DNA of 64,000 bases, from NCBI RefSeq assembly GCF_000376805.1, contig NZ_AQXT01000002.1, positions 1,922,001 through 1,986,000 of the forward strand. Direction: 5' to 3'. This DNA comes from Henriciella marina DSM 19595. Its GTDB lineage: Bacteria > Pseudomonadota > Alphaproteobacteria > Caulobacterales > Hyphomonadaceae. Shown piece after piece: positions 46,916 through 54,669 of the stretch; the stretch's first letter is position 1; each line of letters opens with the position of its first letter. Under the pieces are notes generated by a model that was not told where the DNA came from, did no database searches, and worked only from the letters and a program-made list of their open reading frames with translations. The position numbers were made by a program, and so were the translations under genes.

Positions 46916-47428
46916 TCAGATATGCTGTTTGGCCATATCGAGGATGAGAACATTTTCGAGGCCGGTCGGGATGATCTCACGCAGATTGGCGAGCGTCATA
47001 GAGCGGATCGTTTCATAGTTTTCGGGCTTGGTCAGATCGCCGAGCGCGACACCGTCATTCGACAGCCGGATGAGGGTACTCATGATGTTGTCGCGCAATT
47101 TAGGCTCCATGCCGTAGAGCCGGTCTGACACGGCTTCATCGATCTCGAGATTGAGACTGATGATGACGAGGCTTTCCACCCGTTCCCCGCGGGTCACTGG
47201 CACGATGAATTCCCGGTTGAACTTGTAGTAGGTCACGGTGCCGGACAGAGACCCATCGCTATCGCTGCCCCCATGACCGCCTTTGCCAGGCGACGCTTCG
47301 GCGCTTTCTTCATGGCTGCTGCTGGCCGAGGCTTCACCGCCGGAGAAAGCGCCTTTCATGAAGAGGCCGCCGCCCGCGCCGAGGACGACGAACAAGACAG
47401 CAATGATAGCGGGAAGGATCTGTTTCAT
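46916..47428 (-). CDS. fliL: Flagellar basal-body stator-associated protein FliL
   Basis: A 170-residue protein with an N-terminal membrane anchor (ILPAIIAVLFVVLGAGGGLF), a Ser/Gly/Glu-rich linker, and a periplasmic domain with TVTYYKFNREFIVPV, SLNLEIDEAV and NLREIIPTGLENVLILDM. FliL surrounds stator units and boosts motor torque. It is last in the fliM-motA-...-flgH-fliL operon, 12 bases after flgH. Confidence 0.92.
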   Translation of the reverse strand: MKQILPAIIAVLFVVLGAGGGLFMKGAFSGGEASASSSHEESAEASPGKGGHGGSDSDGSLSGTVTYYKFNREFIVPVTRGERVESLVIISLNLEIDEAVSDRLYGMEPKLRDNIMSTLIRLSNDGVALGDLTKPENYETIRSMTLANLREIIPTGLENVLILDMAKQHI

Positions 47429-49371: not shown

Positions 49372-50085
49372 TTAAAGCTGTCGTAAGGTACTGATAAATT
49401 TGGCGATCCGGTCGTCCTCTCGTTCGATCATCGCCTGGCCGGCCTCATAGGCACGCTGTACTTCGATCATCCGCGCGATTTCGAGCACGGGTGAAACGTT
49501 CGACTGTTCAAGCGCGCCCTGGACGACTTTCGGCTCCTCAACCTGCTGAAAGCCGTCATCGGCAGTGAACATCGCATTGCCTGCGCGCATCATCTGACCT
49601 TCAGGCGCCACGACGCCGACCTGGTCGATGATGACCCCTTCAAAAGAGATCGTTCCATCGCCAGCAATGCTGACATTGGTCGCTTCTTCCGGGATCTGGA
49701 TCGGCCCGCCGCCCGCGTTCAGCACGCGGTTGCCGGCTGCATCGATAAGCTCAGCTTGCGCATTCAGCTGGAAGTGGCCGGCGCGTGTCAGGCGTTGGCC
49801 CTGCGGGGTTTCAATCAGGAAATAGCCCTCGCCCTGTACGGCAAGGTCAAACGAGCCGCCGGTGAAACGAAGACCGCCCTGCTCAAGGTCATAGGAATGA
49901 CCCGATAGCGTGCCCATCGAAAGGTCAGAGAGATTGTTGCTTGTGCCCGCTACGAACTCGGCAAAGATCGCGCGGTCAGACTTGTACCCGGTGGTGCTGG
50001 AGTTTGCGAGATTGTTCGCGACCACCTGCATCTCGGTCATAAGGCCGCTCTGGCGGGCAAGGGCTGCGTAAATGGCGTTCGACAT
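49372..50085 (-). CDS. flgF: Flagellar rod protein FlgF
   Basis: A 237-residue protein with the flagellar rod family ends (LMTEMQVVANNLANSSTTGYK near the start; EIARMIEVQRAYEAGQAMIEREDDRIAKFI at the C-terminus) but without the extra FlgG insert. Its start overlaps the stop of the upstream 593-residue protein gene by one base, indicating cotranslation. Confidence 0.93.
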   Translation of the reverse strand: MSNAIYAALARQSGLMTEMQVVANNLANSSTTGYKSDRAIFAEFVAGTSNNLSDLSMGTLSGHSYDLEQGGLRFTGGSFDLAVQGEGYFLIETPQGQRLTRAGHFQLNAQAELIDAAGNRVLNAGGGPIQIPEEATNVSIAGDGTISFEGVIIDQVGVVAPEGQMMRAGNAMFTADDGFQQVEEPKVVQGALEQSNVSPVLEIARMIEVQRAYEAGQAMIEREDDRIAKFISTLRQL

Positions 50086-51866
50086 CAGCGAACCTCCGTC
50101 GGTTCGGACCCGAGCGACTGACGAAGCCGTTCGAGCCGGGAGGAAACATCGGAGAGGGCGATTTCGCCATCCGTGGTGGACGCTGGCGCAGGCCGGGTCT
50201 CAGCAATGCGCAAGGCGCGGACCTGAACGGCTTCGTCGCCGCTTTGCGCGGCCAGTGAATAGAAGCGTTGCGGGACAATCCAGTGGCCCGCCGCCGCATC
50301 AGCCTCAATCAGCATGAGAGCGGTATCCACGTCCCCCGGAATACCGCGGGAGAGGCGCGCGAAGGCGTCGGCATCGCCGCTGCGAATGGCATCGATCAAG
50401 GCAACCTTGCGGATCGCAACATTGTCTGGATGCGCCTCAGTGAGGCGACGAAGACCTTCATGGTCTTCCAGCTGAAAGGCCAGTTCGGCCTGCGCTAGCG
50501 AGAGCGCGGCATCATTACCCAACCGCGCCGAAAGTTTCTCGGACATGGAAGGCAGGCCGAAATTGGCCGCCATGGCAGACGCGCGGGCATAGCGGCCATC
50601 GGTGCCCTCGCGGTCTTCCAGCAGGGCGCCCGCTTTGAGCAGGGCGTCCATGGCCTTGAGATTTACCAGAAACGCTCCGCTTTCGAGATCGGCATCGATC
50701 ATGCCCTCAAAATGCGAGGCGAGACGTTCTTTCGCATCCGGATCACTCGCGGCCGGCAAAGCCGCCAGTCGAAGCGTCATGTCATAGCCGACGGCGCTGT
50801 TGAGGTCCTGCAAGATAATGCCGAGGTTTTCGGAAACCGACGCTTGCGGCGACAGATTGCCGAACTCATGAATATAGTGCTCGACGATATCGCGCTCCAC
50901 GTCACTCGATATGGCCTGGCCATGACGGCGAAGCGCGGCAGCAGCTTCTGTGCGATACTGGGCGCGTCTCAGATAATTGCGCAGATCATGGGCAGCACTC
51001 GCCGCGCCCATCGAGAGGCGCTGCATGGCTTTTACGAACTGTAGCTCATGGCTTGTTGCGATCTCGTCTGCGGTAAAGCTGGTCATCAGCCGTTCGGAAA
51101 GGATCGGACGGTCAAGCCGGTCGAGCGCAGGAATGATAATGAGCGCCGCATTGGCGCGCAGACGAAGCGGCAGACCGCGGAAGGCCGTAAAGTGTTCAGC
51201 AAGAAGGTCTGCGCCAGCCGCATCATTGGCTTTCAGCTTTGCAATCCCAAGCCATAGTCCATCGTCGACATCGCATGCTGCAACAGCGCTCAGGAAAGCC
51301 TGGTTTGGCTGGCCATCGCGGTCGAGCAAATCAACCAGGTGGCGAAGGGCCACGCCGCCTTGGCCATGGTCGCCGGCCAGCTCTGCACGCGCTTCGGTCA
51401 GGAGCCCAAGAGACAGATAAGCCCGCGCCATGAGACGCCCGAGAGCGGTCGTTTGCTCCTCGGTTTCCAGCACGCCGCGCCAACCTGAAAGGTCCTGATA
51501 AGTGGTAAAATCGATGAATTCTTCGAAGTCGTAAGGTGATGTTTCGGGGCAAAGATAATCGACGTTGGCGACTTCGCGGATCGTTTCCGGCGCAGGGGCC
51601 GCTATTGGCGTGTCTGCCGCAGGCTGGACATCACCAGCCGGCTGGTTCTCCACGGGCGCTTCGTCAGCTGAGTCCACGCCATCATCTGTGTGCGGGCGCG
51701 CCGGGCGCAGCAGGCCTTCGCTGATCGCTTCCTGTACAAAACTGTCGAGCTCACCCGGCAGCCGCTGAAGATCATTTGAGCTCTCAAACGGCTGCGACGG
51801 CTCCTGTGCAGAAGCCGCCTGCGCGAACATTGCCGCGCCAATGAGTATGGCGAGTTTGTGCCTCAA
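50085..51866 (-). CDS. Unknown exported helical protein in the motA operon
   Basis: A 593-residue protein that I do not recognise. A clear signal peptide (residues about 1-20, ILIGAAMFAQAASAQ) leads into an acidic, Pro-rich low-complexity stretch (about 25-95), then long helical repeats with patterns such as ALGRLMARAYLSLGLLTEARAEL and the final EIALSDVSSRLERLRQSLG, resembling TPR-type solenoids. It sits between motA (4-base overlap) and flgF (1-base overlap). Rhizobial mot operons carry an exported protein MotC next to motA/motB, and this gene may be a positional counterpart. Similarity to MotC could not be seen by eye. Confidence 0.7.
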   Translation of the reverse strand: MRHKLAILIGAAMFAQAASAQEPSQPFESSNDLQRLPGELDSFVQEAISEGLLRPARPHTDDGVDSADEAPVENQPAGDVQPAADTPIAAPAPETIREVANVDYLCPETSPYDFEEFIDFTTYQDLSGWRGVLETEEQTTALGRLMARAYLSLGLLTEARAELAGDHGQGGVALRHLVDLLDRDGQPNQAFLSAVAACDVDDGLWLGIAKLKANDAAGADLLAEHFTAFRGLPLRLRANAALIIIPALDRLDRPILSERLMTSFTADEIATSHELQFVKAMQRLSMGAASAAHDLRNYLRRAQYRTEAAAALRRHGQAISSDVERDIVEHYIHEFGNLSPQASVSENLGIILQDLNSAVGYDMTLRLAALPAASDPDAKERLASHFEGMIDADLESGAFLVNLKAMDALLKAGALLEDREGTDGRYARASAMAANFGLPSMSEKLSARLGNDAALSLAQAELAFQLEDHEGLRRLTEAHPDNVAIRKVALIDAIRSGDADAFARLSRGIPGDVDTALMLIEADAAAGHWIVPQRFYSLAAQSGDEAVQVRALRIAETRPAPASTTDGEIALSDVSSRLERLRQSLGSEPTEVR

Positions 51867-52729
51867 GCTGCTTGCTTCAGCCCCCTCAATGCCTGTTCGA
51901 TTTCATTGAAGGACGGTCTCACCCGGGCCGGGGCATGGCGTCTTGCCACCTCGACACAGATATTCACCGGGTTCTTGTGAAGGTTCGAAACCAGAACTTC
52001 GCCGATCATCGAGTAAAAGAAGTGCTCTTCGGTCCGAAGACCTTTGATGCGTGACGCAAAAGGCCCGACCAGCCCATAGGCCAGGAAGACGCCGAGAAAA
52101 GTACCGACCAGCGCGCCGCCGATCATGCCGCCCAGAACTTCCGGGGGTTTGTCGATGGACGCCATTGTCTTGATGACGCCGAGCACGGCCGCGACGATGC
52201 CAAGCGCTGGAAGGGCGTCCGCCATGTTGGAGAGCGCATGGGCCCCGGCAAGCTTGTCTTCGAGCAGGCTTTCAAGATGCTTTTCCAGAAGCTCCTCGAC
52301 CTGATGGACATTGTCGAAGTTCATTAGCATGGAACGGACTGTGTCGCAGATCATGTCGATCGCGTCCTCGTCCTTCAGAATGCGTGGATAGCGCTGGAAG
52401 ATCGAAGACTGTTGCGGGTCCTCGATATGCTGCTCAATGTCCACGGGGTTGTTGCGAAGAACGTGAAGAAGCTCTGACATGAGGCAGAGCAGGTCCTGAT
52501 AGTCAGATTTCTTCCACTTCGACCCGGTAAAGGCGGCGACAACGTCAGCACCGGTCTGTTTGATCGTGCCGAAATCATTTGCTGCCAGAAGTGCGCCAAT
52601 GGCCGCGCCGCCAATCATCATGCCTTCGAATGGAAGCGCATGGGTGATGATTTCCATGTGTCCGCCGGCAAGTATATAGCCGCCGAACACCATGCCTACG
52701 GTAAACAAAATGCCAAGTATTGCGTTCAA
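51863..52729 (-). CDS. motA: Flagellar motor stator protein MotA, TTG start
   Basis: A 288-residue stator subunit with four membrane helices. The conserved prolines are in ADALPALGIVAAVLGVIKTM and the torque-loop charges are around KSDYQDLLCLMSELLHVLR. Start: the frame is open to 52807, but that would add 26 residues not found in MotA. TTG at 52729 has GGAGG 5 bases upstream and gives MNAILGILFTVGMVFGGYIL, matching family length and topology. It conducts protons with MotB. A small hairpin (52741-52759) lies directly before its ribosome site. Confidence 0.92.
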   Translation of the reverse strand: MNAILGILFTVGMVFGGYILAGGHMEIITHALPFEGMMIGGAAIGALLAANDFGTIKQTGADVVAAFTGSKWKKSDYQDLLCLMSELLHVLRNNPVDIEQHIEDPQQSSIFQRYPRILKDEDAIDMICDTVRSMLMNFDNVHQVEELLEKHLESLLEDKLAGAHALSNMADALPALGIVAAVLGVIKTMASIDKPPEVLGGMIGGALVGTFLGVFLAYGLVGPFASRIKGLRTEEHFFYSMIGEVLVSNLHKNPVNICVEVARRHAPARVRPSFNEIEQALRGLKQAA

Positions 52730-52740
52730 CTCGTCCTCCA

Positions 52741-52759
52741 TTGCACCGATTGGGTGCAA
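52741..52759 (-). promoter_or_regulatory. Hairpin before the motA ribosome-binding site
   Basis: TTGCACC (52741-52747) pairs with GGTGCAA (52753-52759), 7 bp with a 5-base loop. It falls between fliM and motA, 4 bases from GGAGG. It may set motA translation relative to fliM. No U tract follows. Confidence 0.5.
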
Positions 52760-52772
52760 GTATTCCTCGTGT

Positions 52773-53732
52773 TCAGGCGCCCGTAAGCTCCTGAACAAAG
52801 CTCTCAAGCAGGGGCGACGTCAGCTTTATGGCGCGCCTGCCTTTCCAGTTGCCTAATTCAGCCTCGGCGATTTCGACACTTCCCGTCATCGTCTCGGCAC
52901 ACAGAGTGAGCTTGCCGTTTTCAGCATCCGTCAGCGGAACGAGCTGCCCCACTTCGAAGCGCGAACAATCAGCGACGCTAATCGGCAATCTGGCGAGCAC
53001 GGCATCGAGGCTGATGTTGGACCTGCGAATGGACTTGATAAGCCGGGTCTTGTTGATGGCGGGCCGCGGCTTGGCGCTCTGCGTCCTGGCAATTTCGATC
53101 CGCTCAGCGTGGGCGGTCAGCGCCTCGACATCATAGTAGAGATGAAGGTGGCCGGTTGGCTCAACCGCGCCTCTGGACATGAAGTTCACAGTGATGGTGA
53201 TCAGCTTTACGCCTTCAGATATGCCATCAGCCAGCCCCGCCGGATCTGCGACCATGAAGTCTTCGGGCAAAGGCAGGCCCGCGGGGATAGCGCGTGCCAG
53301 GTCTTCCATCAGCCGGCGGACAGGCTTGTCGCACATCAGGCGGAGGAAGAGCGGCGGGGCGATCTCGACATGTGAAAGGTCTTCCTTCAGCCGCCGGGCG
53401 ACAAAACGCTCTGCCAGCACGGGCGCAATCGAGATCGCGTGAAGACCGCCGGTCCCTGCTGGTAAACAAAAGTAGCCGAATTTTTCACGAATACGCGTTT
53501 CGACCTCACTATTGGTTACCTGCGCACGGGCCCCGATCTGGGCCCTCATTTCGAAGCCAAGCGTCTCCTCGCACCAGGTTTCACATGCGTTCGTCAATGC
53601 CGCCCAGAGAGGCTCACAATGCAGGAGTGACGGGGATAATCCCCCGGCAGACCTCATCATTTTGAGCATTGTTTCAGACACGTTCACCCCTCGGCCAGAC
53701 GGCCCCTTCTCCAGTTCGGGGTGTGGAGACAT
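52773..53732 (-). CDS. fliM: Flagellar motor switch protein FliM
   Basis: A 319-residue protein whose C-terminal third is a surface-presentation-of-antigens (SpoA) domain: VLARLPISVADCSRFEVGQLVPL and GSVEIAEAELGNWKGRRAIKLT. The middle domain (SIAPVLAERFVARRLKEDLSHVEIAPPLF) is FliM-like but divergent; the usual N-terminal CheY-binding motif is not obvious. ATG 53732 lacks a ribosome site; GTG 53681 has GAGGGG 5 bases before it and could be the true start. FliM forms the C ring with FliG and FliN. It is first of the operon, divergent from motB. Confidence 0.82.
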   Translation of the reverse strand: MSPHPELEKGPSGRGVNVSETMLKMMRSAGGLSPSLLHCEPLWAALTNACETWCEETLGFEMRAQIGARAQVTNSEVETRIREKFGYFCLPAGTGGLHAISIAPVLAERFVARRLKEDLSHVEIAPPLFLRLMCDKPVRRLMEDLARAIPAGLPLPEDFMVADPAGLADGISEGVKLITITVNFMSRGAVEPTGHLHLYYDVEALTAHAERIEIARTQSAKPRPAINKTRLIKSIRRSNISLDAVLARLPISVADCSRFEVGQLVPLTDAENGKLTLCAETMTGSVEIAEAELGNWKGRRAIKLTSPLLESFVQELTGA

Positions 53733-53844: not shown

Positions 53845-54669
53845 ATGGCACAAACGCCATCAGACGCGACACACGTCACGATTATCAAACGCAAGAAGGT
53901 CATCAAGGCTGACGGGCACCATGGCGGTGCCTGGAAAGTCGCCTATGCCGACTTCGTGACCGCCATGATGGCGTTCTTCCTTCTTATGTGGCTCCTCAAC
54001 GCGACGACCGAGGACCAGCGCAAGGGGATCGCCGACTATTTTAACCCCTCCATTCCGGTCAGCAGAGTTTCAGGCGGCGGCGCTGACGGCCTCAATGGCA
54101 GCTCGCTTGTCGCAGAGGATACTGCCGCCAAGATGGGCACAGGCGCCACGGGGGTTGGCGATGGTCAATCCAAGGAACAGTCCCGCCATACCGACATCGC
54201 GCGCGACCTTGAGGAAATGCGCAATGAGCTTGGTGACGAGACCGAGAGCCTGTCAGAGCACCTTCTGGTGAAGATGACGCCTGAGGGCATCGTGCTGGAA
54301 ATAGTCGATTCCGAAAGCAATCCATTGTTCGAATTGGGCCGCAGCGAGCCGACGTCGCTGATGAAAAACCTTCTCGCTGCGGTTTCAGGCTCGCTTAACA
54401 AGTTCGAGAATGATGTGAAGATCGTTGGCCATACTGATGACCGGCCATTCCGCGGGGCTGGCGGCTATGACAATTGGAGCCTCTCTTCAGACAGGGCGAA
54501 CACTGCTCGCCAGTTGCTCATTTCGAATGGCCTGCCGAGCGGCCGCGTACGTGAAGTTTCGGGCCGGGCCGATACTGATCCACTGGTCCCTGGCGAGCCT
54601 TCGGCAGCTCGCAATCGCCGCATCTCGATCACCATCATGACCGACACCGCAGAGACCGCAGAAACCTAG
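53845..54669 (+). CDS. motB: Flagellar motor stator protein MotB
   Basis: A 274-residue protein. The single membrane helix contains the proton-binding Asp36 in YADFVTAMMAFFLLMWLL; a plug/linker follows and the OmpA-type peptidoglycan-binding domain contains VGHTDDRPFRGAGGYDNWSLSSDRA and SAARNRRISI. It anchors stator units to the cell wall. It is transcribed away from motA and leads into flgE 60 bases downstream, so motA and motB are in different operons. Confidence 0.94.
   Translation: MAQTPSDATHVTIIKRKKVIKADGHHGGAWKVAYADFVTAMMAFFLLMWLLNATTEDQRKGIADYFNPSIPVSRVSGGGADGLNGSSLVAEDTAAKMGTGATGVGDGQSKEQSRHTDIARDLEEMRNELGDETESLSEHLLVKMTPEGIVLEIVDSESNPLFELGRSEPTSLMKNLLAAVSGSLNKFENDVKIVGHTDDRPFRGAGGYDNWSLSSDRANTARQLLISNGLPSGRVREVSGRADTDPLVPGEPSAARNRRISITIMTDTAETAET

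Follow-up and report, generated by a model that had tools for sequence, protein, structure and literature searches.

The window analysed here, a stretch of 64,000 nucleotides from Henriciella marina DSM 19595, contains part of a flagellar gene cluster in which a gene encoding a protein of 593 amino acids (50085..51866) is wedged between motA and flgF. The preliminary description gave no strand for this ORF; it is read on the minus strand, from 51866 to 50085, and begins with a TTG start codon. The stop codon of motA (51863..52744, minus; TIGR03818, 346 bits against a cut-off of 303.8) ends at 51863, which creates a 4-base overlap with the studied gene, and the ATG of the proximal rod gene flgF (49372..50085, minus; TIGR02490, 190.5 bits) begins at 50085 and overlaps the stop of this gene, hereafter motK-like, by one base. 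Both overlaps had already been described and are borne out by the coordinates. All 27 homologous loci share an NTGA overlap with motA (ATGA in 13, GTGA in 7, TTGA in 7), their start codon being ATG, GTG or TTG, which makes the start of the motK-like gene firm and translational coupling to motA likely. Compared with orthologues that are 67-69% identical, codon positions 1, 2 and 3 carry about 0.23, 0.15 and 0.58 of the differences, and roughly 200 codon changes are synonymous. The ORF is therefore a real coding sequence whose protein is under selection, and no frameshift or stop was seen across 27 genomes. As for motA itself, the listed ORF begins at a TTG inside fliM and extends to 52807; the ATG at 52744 is probably the true start, given that the TIGR03818 match starts at ORF residue 28 and the MotA proteins of relatives are mostly 288-292 residues long.

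Upstream of motA lies the gene of a fliM-like switch protein (52773..53732, minus), assigned by PF01052 and synteny. Its product is very divergent: the C-terminal FliMN_C domain is the sole one recognised (E 5.5e-7), and the E to the FliM equivalog model is 0.046. The motB gene (53845..54669, plus) is divergent from motA and encodes the expected partner of MotK. About 1 kb past the window end, at window coordinates 65.1-65.7 kb (G000:C2:1987072-1987737), there is a MotE homologue of 221 amino acids, placed behind fliL and a pflI-like gene and some 13 kb from motA. It matches MgtE_N, as does the MotE of Paroceanicella, and is 36% identical to Sinorhizobium meliloti MotE across 53 residues. In Rhodobacterales, and in one genome of the same order as Henriciella (G052), the fliL-pflI-motE trio is found directly upstream of motA. 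The cluster encodes two FliL-like proteins, one within the window (46916-47428, minus) and one at L033:1053-1583 (plus). The former falls just short of the FliL family cut-off (22.2 bits against 24.6), and its relatives come after flgH in the related clusters inspected.

The signal peptide, disordered stretch and helical solenoid noticed in the preliminary description are all recovered by sequence and hydropathy, an AlphaFold2 model and Foldseek/VIA-align. The Sec-type signal peptide occupies residues 1-20 (51807..51866, minus) and was predicted by eye and hydropathy as MRHKLAILIGAAMFAQAASA followed by QEP, with cleavage likely after ASA; the most hydrophobic 15-mer of the whole protein is residues 5-19, and AlphaFold2 places a helix at residues 5-15. 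The mature protein would thus be exported by Sec to the periplasm. In the AlphaFold2 model, which was built from an 11-row alignment and has a mean pLDDT of 69 and a pTM of 0.48, nearly every position from 1 to 103 has a pLDDT under 50. The sole helix predicted there after the signal (residues 36-49) coincides in part with LDxFVxxAIxxGLL, the segment most strongly conserved in the N-terminal region of the family. This conserved helix, LDSFVQEAISEGLL in H. marina (residues 40-53; 51708..51749, minus), lies inside the disordered N-terminal region, and its pattern occurs in 20 of 21 family members, the 21st having a degenerate form, compared with 0.06 occurrences expected per shuffled protein. 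It is followed by an acidic, proline-rich linker (residues 54-104; 51555..51707, minus) whose disorder is indicated by its composition and a pLDDT mostly below 50. Next comes the solenoid cap (51273..51551, minus), bounded by C106 and C198, the only cysteines of the mature protein. These are invariant in the 21 aligned members, 83-94 residues apart, have matching residues in MotK, and probably form a disulfide that closes the solenoid.

Residues 187-560 form a TPR-like alpha solenoid (50187..51308, minus) supported by AlphaFold2, Foldseek/VIA-align and hhalign. The model is all-helical from about residue 186 to 560, with pLDDT mostly 75-91, and its Foldseek/VIA-align matches are TPR/PPR solenoids with Z up to 10.9, a value that helical repeats reach without kinship. 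No flagellar structure was among the matches listed, and the comparison does not speak against a PflA-like fold. The profile search against TPR families that had been proposed at the outset came back empty, with no Pfam TPR clan match at E<=0.1 in 21 family members, even though the fold is still that of a TPR-like solenoid; Rhodobacterales MotK proteins, by contrast, do match TPR_19. Searches of Pfam, NCBIfam and PDB sequences with the single protein gave nothing usable, the curated libraries having no model for it, and PDB profile searches returned designed repeat proteins only (E 0.17-0.56). DUF7242 and DotI/IcmL were rejected as possible families, their matches being far below the cut-off.

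Profile comparisons place the protein in a known flagellar family. When the window-family profile was run against 385 alphaproteobacterial genomes, the best match outside the family was a Rhodobacterales protein of 819 amino acids (E 2e-7), the gene of which overlaps motA by 4 bases. In the reverse direction, the MotK profile found a single match at E<=0.1 in the whole genome of the window, namely the motK-like gene (E 9e-7), and hhalign aligns the two families over 409 columns and the whole solenoid with a probability of 97.5% (E 6e-12). The family of the 819-residue protein is present in 110 of 148 Rhodobacterales genomes. In all 30 loci inspected its gene comes right after motA, and motE immediately precedes motA where the locus is long enough to show it. 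The same arrangement has been published for Cereibacter sphaeroides, as fliL-pflI-motE-motA-motK (PMC10954123), and for Phaeobacter inhibens, where the run reads CP2-CP3-motA-CP4 (PMC12363192). It is by this gene order and by domain plan that we call the Rhodobacterales gene MotK, and comparisons were made with these homologues rather than with the C. sphaeroides sequence itself. Identity to them is about 16%, and the invariant residues correspond: C106/C198 to C325/C425, W205 to W432 and P233/R237 to P457/R461 of MotK. The motA-X-flgF slot, X being the motK-like gene, also exists in Paroceanicella, where flgF follows MotK, and in G052. The family resemblance further extends to MotK of C. sphaeroides Fla2 (RSWS8N_12065; UniProt Q3IY86) and CP4 of P. 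inhibens: like the Rhodobacterales homologues in general, these share a gene directly after motA, mostly with a 4-base overlap, a signal peptide, a disordered linker, a pre-solenoid helix that ends in GLL, a TPR-like solenoid with an invariant Cys pair, and a MotE in the same genome. Judging from these matches, the motK-like gene represents MotK, a family already known, in its Hyphomonadaceae form. The preliminary description had put the protein forward as a candidate for an undescribed motor component, unless clear homology to a known protein emerged; such homology was found, with reciprocal profile matches joining it to MotK (E 6e-12; PMC10954123). Its other suggestion, a stator-stabilising or ring-associated part missing from model flagella, fits MotK well, a stator partner working with the E-ring protein MotE (COG3334).

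The H. marina protein differs from Rhodobacterales MotK in length (593 residues versus 712-883), in the distance of motE-pflI-fliL from motA, and above all in domain plan. In MotK as published, the N-terminus carries an AMIN-like domain with a proposed role in peptidoglycan binding. An HMM of this domain built from 19 Rhodobacterales-type MotK proteins finds matches elsewhere in the same order (G052, 1e-21; G058, 3e-14; G033, 7e-6) and none in the motK-like gene or its orthologues, nor in the other ORFs of the cluster, and the AlphaFold2 model is all-helical. The possibility that the domain had become a separate gene nearby was considered and rejected, with no such gene found in the window or in the 20 kb past one end and 17 kb past the other. 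We thus treat the product as a variant, a MotK homologue without AMIN that departs from the domain plan in the literature. In a MotA tree the AMIN-bearing loci fall outside and at the base, and the AMIN-less loci, from two families, form one group together with two motK-less loci (support 96/87), which suggests one loss; the domain was probably lost once in this lineage. Support for nesting the two motK-less genomes (G056 and G060) inside the AMIN-less group is 91/77; the adjacency of motE and motA in these genomes speaks instead for a branch outside it. What is new here is the AMIN-less form of a known family, which keeps the LDxFVxxAIxxGLL helix on a flexible tether; the passages on MotK that we drew on mention neither an AMIN-less MotK nor Henriciella.

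Within the genus, the distribution of the gene follows that of flagella. The order fliM-motA-X-flgF is found in 26 of 26 relatives, counting G051, whose flgF lay outside the first locus and was seen on a wider look, and on 10 named Henriciella contigs. Within the genus, 23 of 29 genomes carry the motK-like gene; these are all 23 flagellated ones, and the six non-flagellated genomes that are without it are also without FlgG, flagellar MotA and MotE. This co-occurrence with MotA, MotE and FlgG supports the assignment to MotK. MotE is absent from one carrier (G010), the assembly of which is in 590 contigs and 87% complete. The gene is absent from four genomes of the same family with Caulobacter-type flagella, one of which (G033) has a 1181-residue AMIN+TPR protein behind motE in its place. 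Two related genomes (G056 and G060; L164, L165) have the order fliL-pflI-motE-motA-flgF, in which motA overlaps flgF directly, and no motK is detectable in them; they seem to be natural MotE-without-MotK motors, if no distant MotK is encoded elsewhere. That two related genomes seem to manage without it counts against the MotK reading. In G055 the slot is filled by a 443-residue ORF that has the helix motif and was not detected by the family profile. Plasmid-borne Rhodobacterales clusters of Sulfitobacter and Marinovum contain motA with no MotK adjoining it.

What is known of MotK comes from the relatives. Rotation in C. sphaeroides depends on both MotK and MotE, which reside in the periplasm at the pole that bears the flagella and interact with one another and with MotB2; MotK mutants are paralysed (PMC10954123). 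CP4 insertions render P. inhibens immotile (PMC12363192). The Henriciella copy may well have the same role. Once exported by Sec, the protein would fold in the periplasm as a TPR-like solenoid, presumably closed by the C106-C198 disulfide, and, as its relatives suggest, bind a ring of MotE and the periplasmic part of MotB, whereby MotAB stators would be recruited or activated. Of the N-terminal part of MotK only the helix behind the former AMIN domain and the flexible tether would be left. We regard it as very probable that the gene encodes an AMIN-less MotK orthologue which, docked on the MotE ring and on MotB, recruits or activates stators. With the AMIN domain absent, contact with the motor must go through the tethered helix and the solenoid. 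In Campylobacter jejuni the loop that follows the AMIN domain of PflA wraps around PflB (PMC11870540), which makes the LDxFVxxAIxxGLL helix a sensible candidate contact site. Function without the AMIN domain is not guaranteed, because the domain is present in published MotK and required for motility in PflA (PMC11870540).

The comparison with rhizobial MotC drawn in the preliminary description is apt as analogy, both proteins being exported and encoded beside mot genes, but fails as kinship. S. meliloti MotC (PRK12798 group) is a periplasmic helical motility protein linked to MotE and protected by it, and a review regards MotC and MotK as homologues from their structure (PMC13023049); an exported, motor-linked helical-repeat protein in a genome with MotE could accordingly be a MotC orthologue. 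This is very improbable. The profile search against MotC that had been suggested finds no relation: hhalign gives a probability of 0.1-0.4% between MotC and the window family, against 97.5% for MotK. MotC, whether as one sequence or as a five-member profile, reaches 0.1-2% against the window-family or MotK profiles, a result that doubles as a negative control for the way hhalign treats helical-repeat proteins. The window protein matches none of the dedicated NCBIfam MotC models at E<=1, and MotC, a protein of 434 residues, is encoded after motB, whereas the motK-like gene follows motA, with motB divergent.

The position directly before flgF, with its 1-base overlap, invites a different explanation, in which a protein co-expressed with flgF, flgG, flgA and flgH aids the assembly of the rod or of the P/L ring in the periplasm and not the stator; the P. 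inhibens CP4 mutant does secrete fewer flagellar proteins (PMC12363192). The conserved coupling, however, is the NTGA with motA (27/27), while the flgF overlap varies; CP4 mutants still export FliC, FlgE and FlgK (PMC12363192), and C. sphaeroides MotK binds MotB2 and its mutants are paralysed (PMC10954123). We therefore consider a rod or cell-wall assembly factor unlikely. The gene could also be a decaying remnant on its way out of a shrinking family, the AMIN domain having been lost and the whole gene missing in G056 and G060. Tree and gene order do point to reduction in this part of the order, and its sequence changes more quickly than those encoded next to it (43% identity to the L008 orthologue, compared with 87% for MotA). 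Purifying selection on codons, the lack of frameshifts and stops in 27 genomes, the invariant residues and the retained operon slot nevertheless leave decay with hardly any likelihood.

MotK, CC_2058 and PflA are thought to link the stators, the MotE/FlgY ring and, via the AMIN domain, the cell wall. In reviews MotE is assigned to the E-ring, and MotK, MotC and CC_2058 are classed together with the spoke protein PflA (PMC13023049, PMC11870540). PflA of C. jejuni, a periplasmic scaffold spoke, resembles the Henriciella protein in its signal peptide, flexible loop and TPR solenoid and as partner of the E-ring protein FlgY/MotE (PMC11870540, PMC13023049), and differs in the beta-sandwich (AMIN) domain that it needs for motility; this likeness is one of description, with no sequence relation claimed. 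The CC_2058-type AMIN+TPR proteins of Caulobacter-type flagella (1108-1181 residues in G058 and G033) are likewise MotE-linked TPR proteins, but are twice as long, AMIN-bearing, encoded next to motE instead of motA, and accompany another MotA group. The MotK paper reports no BLAST link between MotK and this type (PMC10954123), whereas profiles built from Rhodobacterales MotK pick this type up at its AMIN part (2.7e-14, 7e-6) as well as at its TPR part (5e-7, 7e-11), which supports one shared family. The two CC_2058-type genes behind motE are at L168:4183-7506 and L170:7841-11386.

A lineage that has naturally dropped the AMIN domain and keeps the rest under selection is a test of what the domain is for. 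The order holds motors in which MotK is complete, trimmed or apparently absent, so that what MotK adds to the E-ring becomes a matter of species comparison. A broader and rather doubtful proposal is that the Hyphomonadaceae scaffold has been rewired, with a MotK that lacks any wall-binding domain held in place solely by the MotE ring and by its tethered N-terminal helix, which would contact a further partner, and with G056 and G060 running MotE without MotK.

Outside the window, the H. marina genome encodes a second MotA-like protein (L171:4734-5618; G000:C2:2347734 onward), which scores 280 bits to TIGR03818, below the cut-off. Its gene adjoins that of a Na+/H+ antiporter, with no MotB match among the neighbours, and occurs in almost every genome of the genus, five of the six without flagella among them; the protein is possibly a non-flagellar proton channel.
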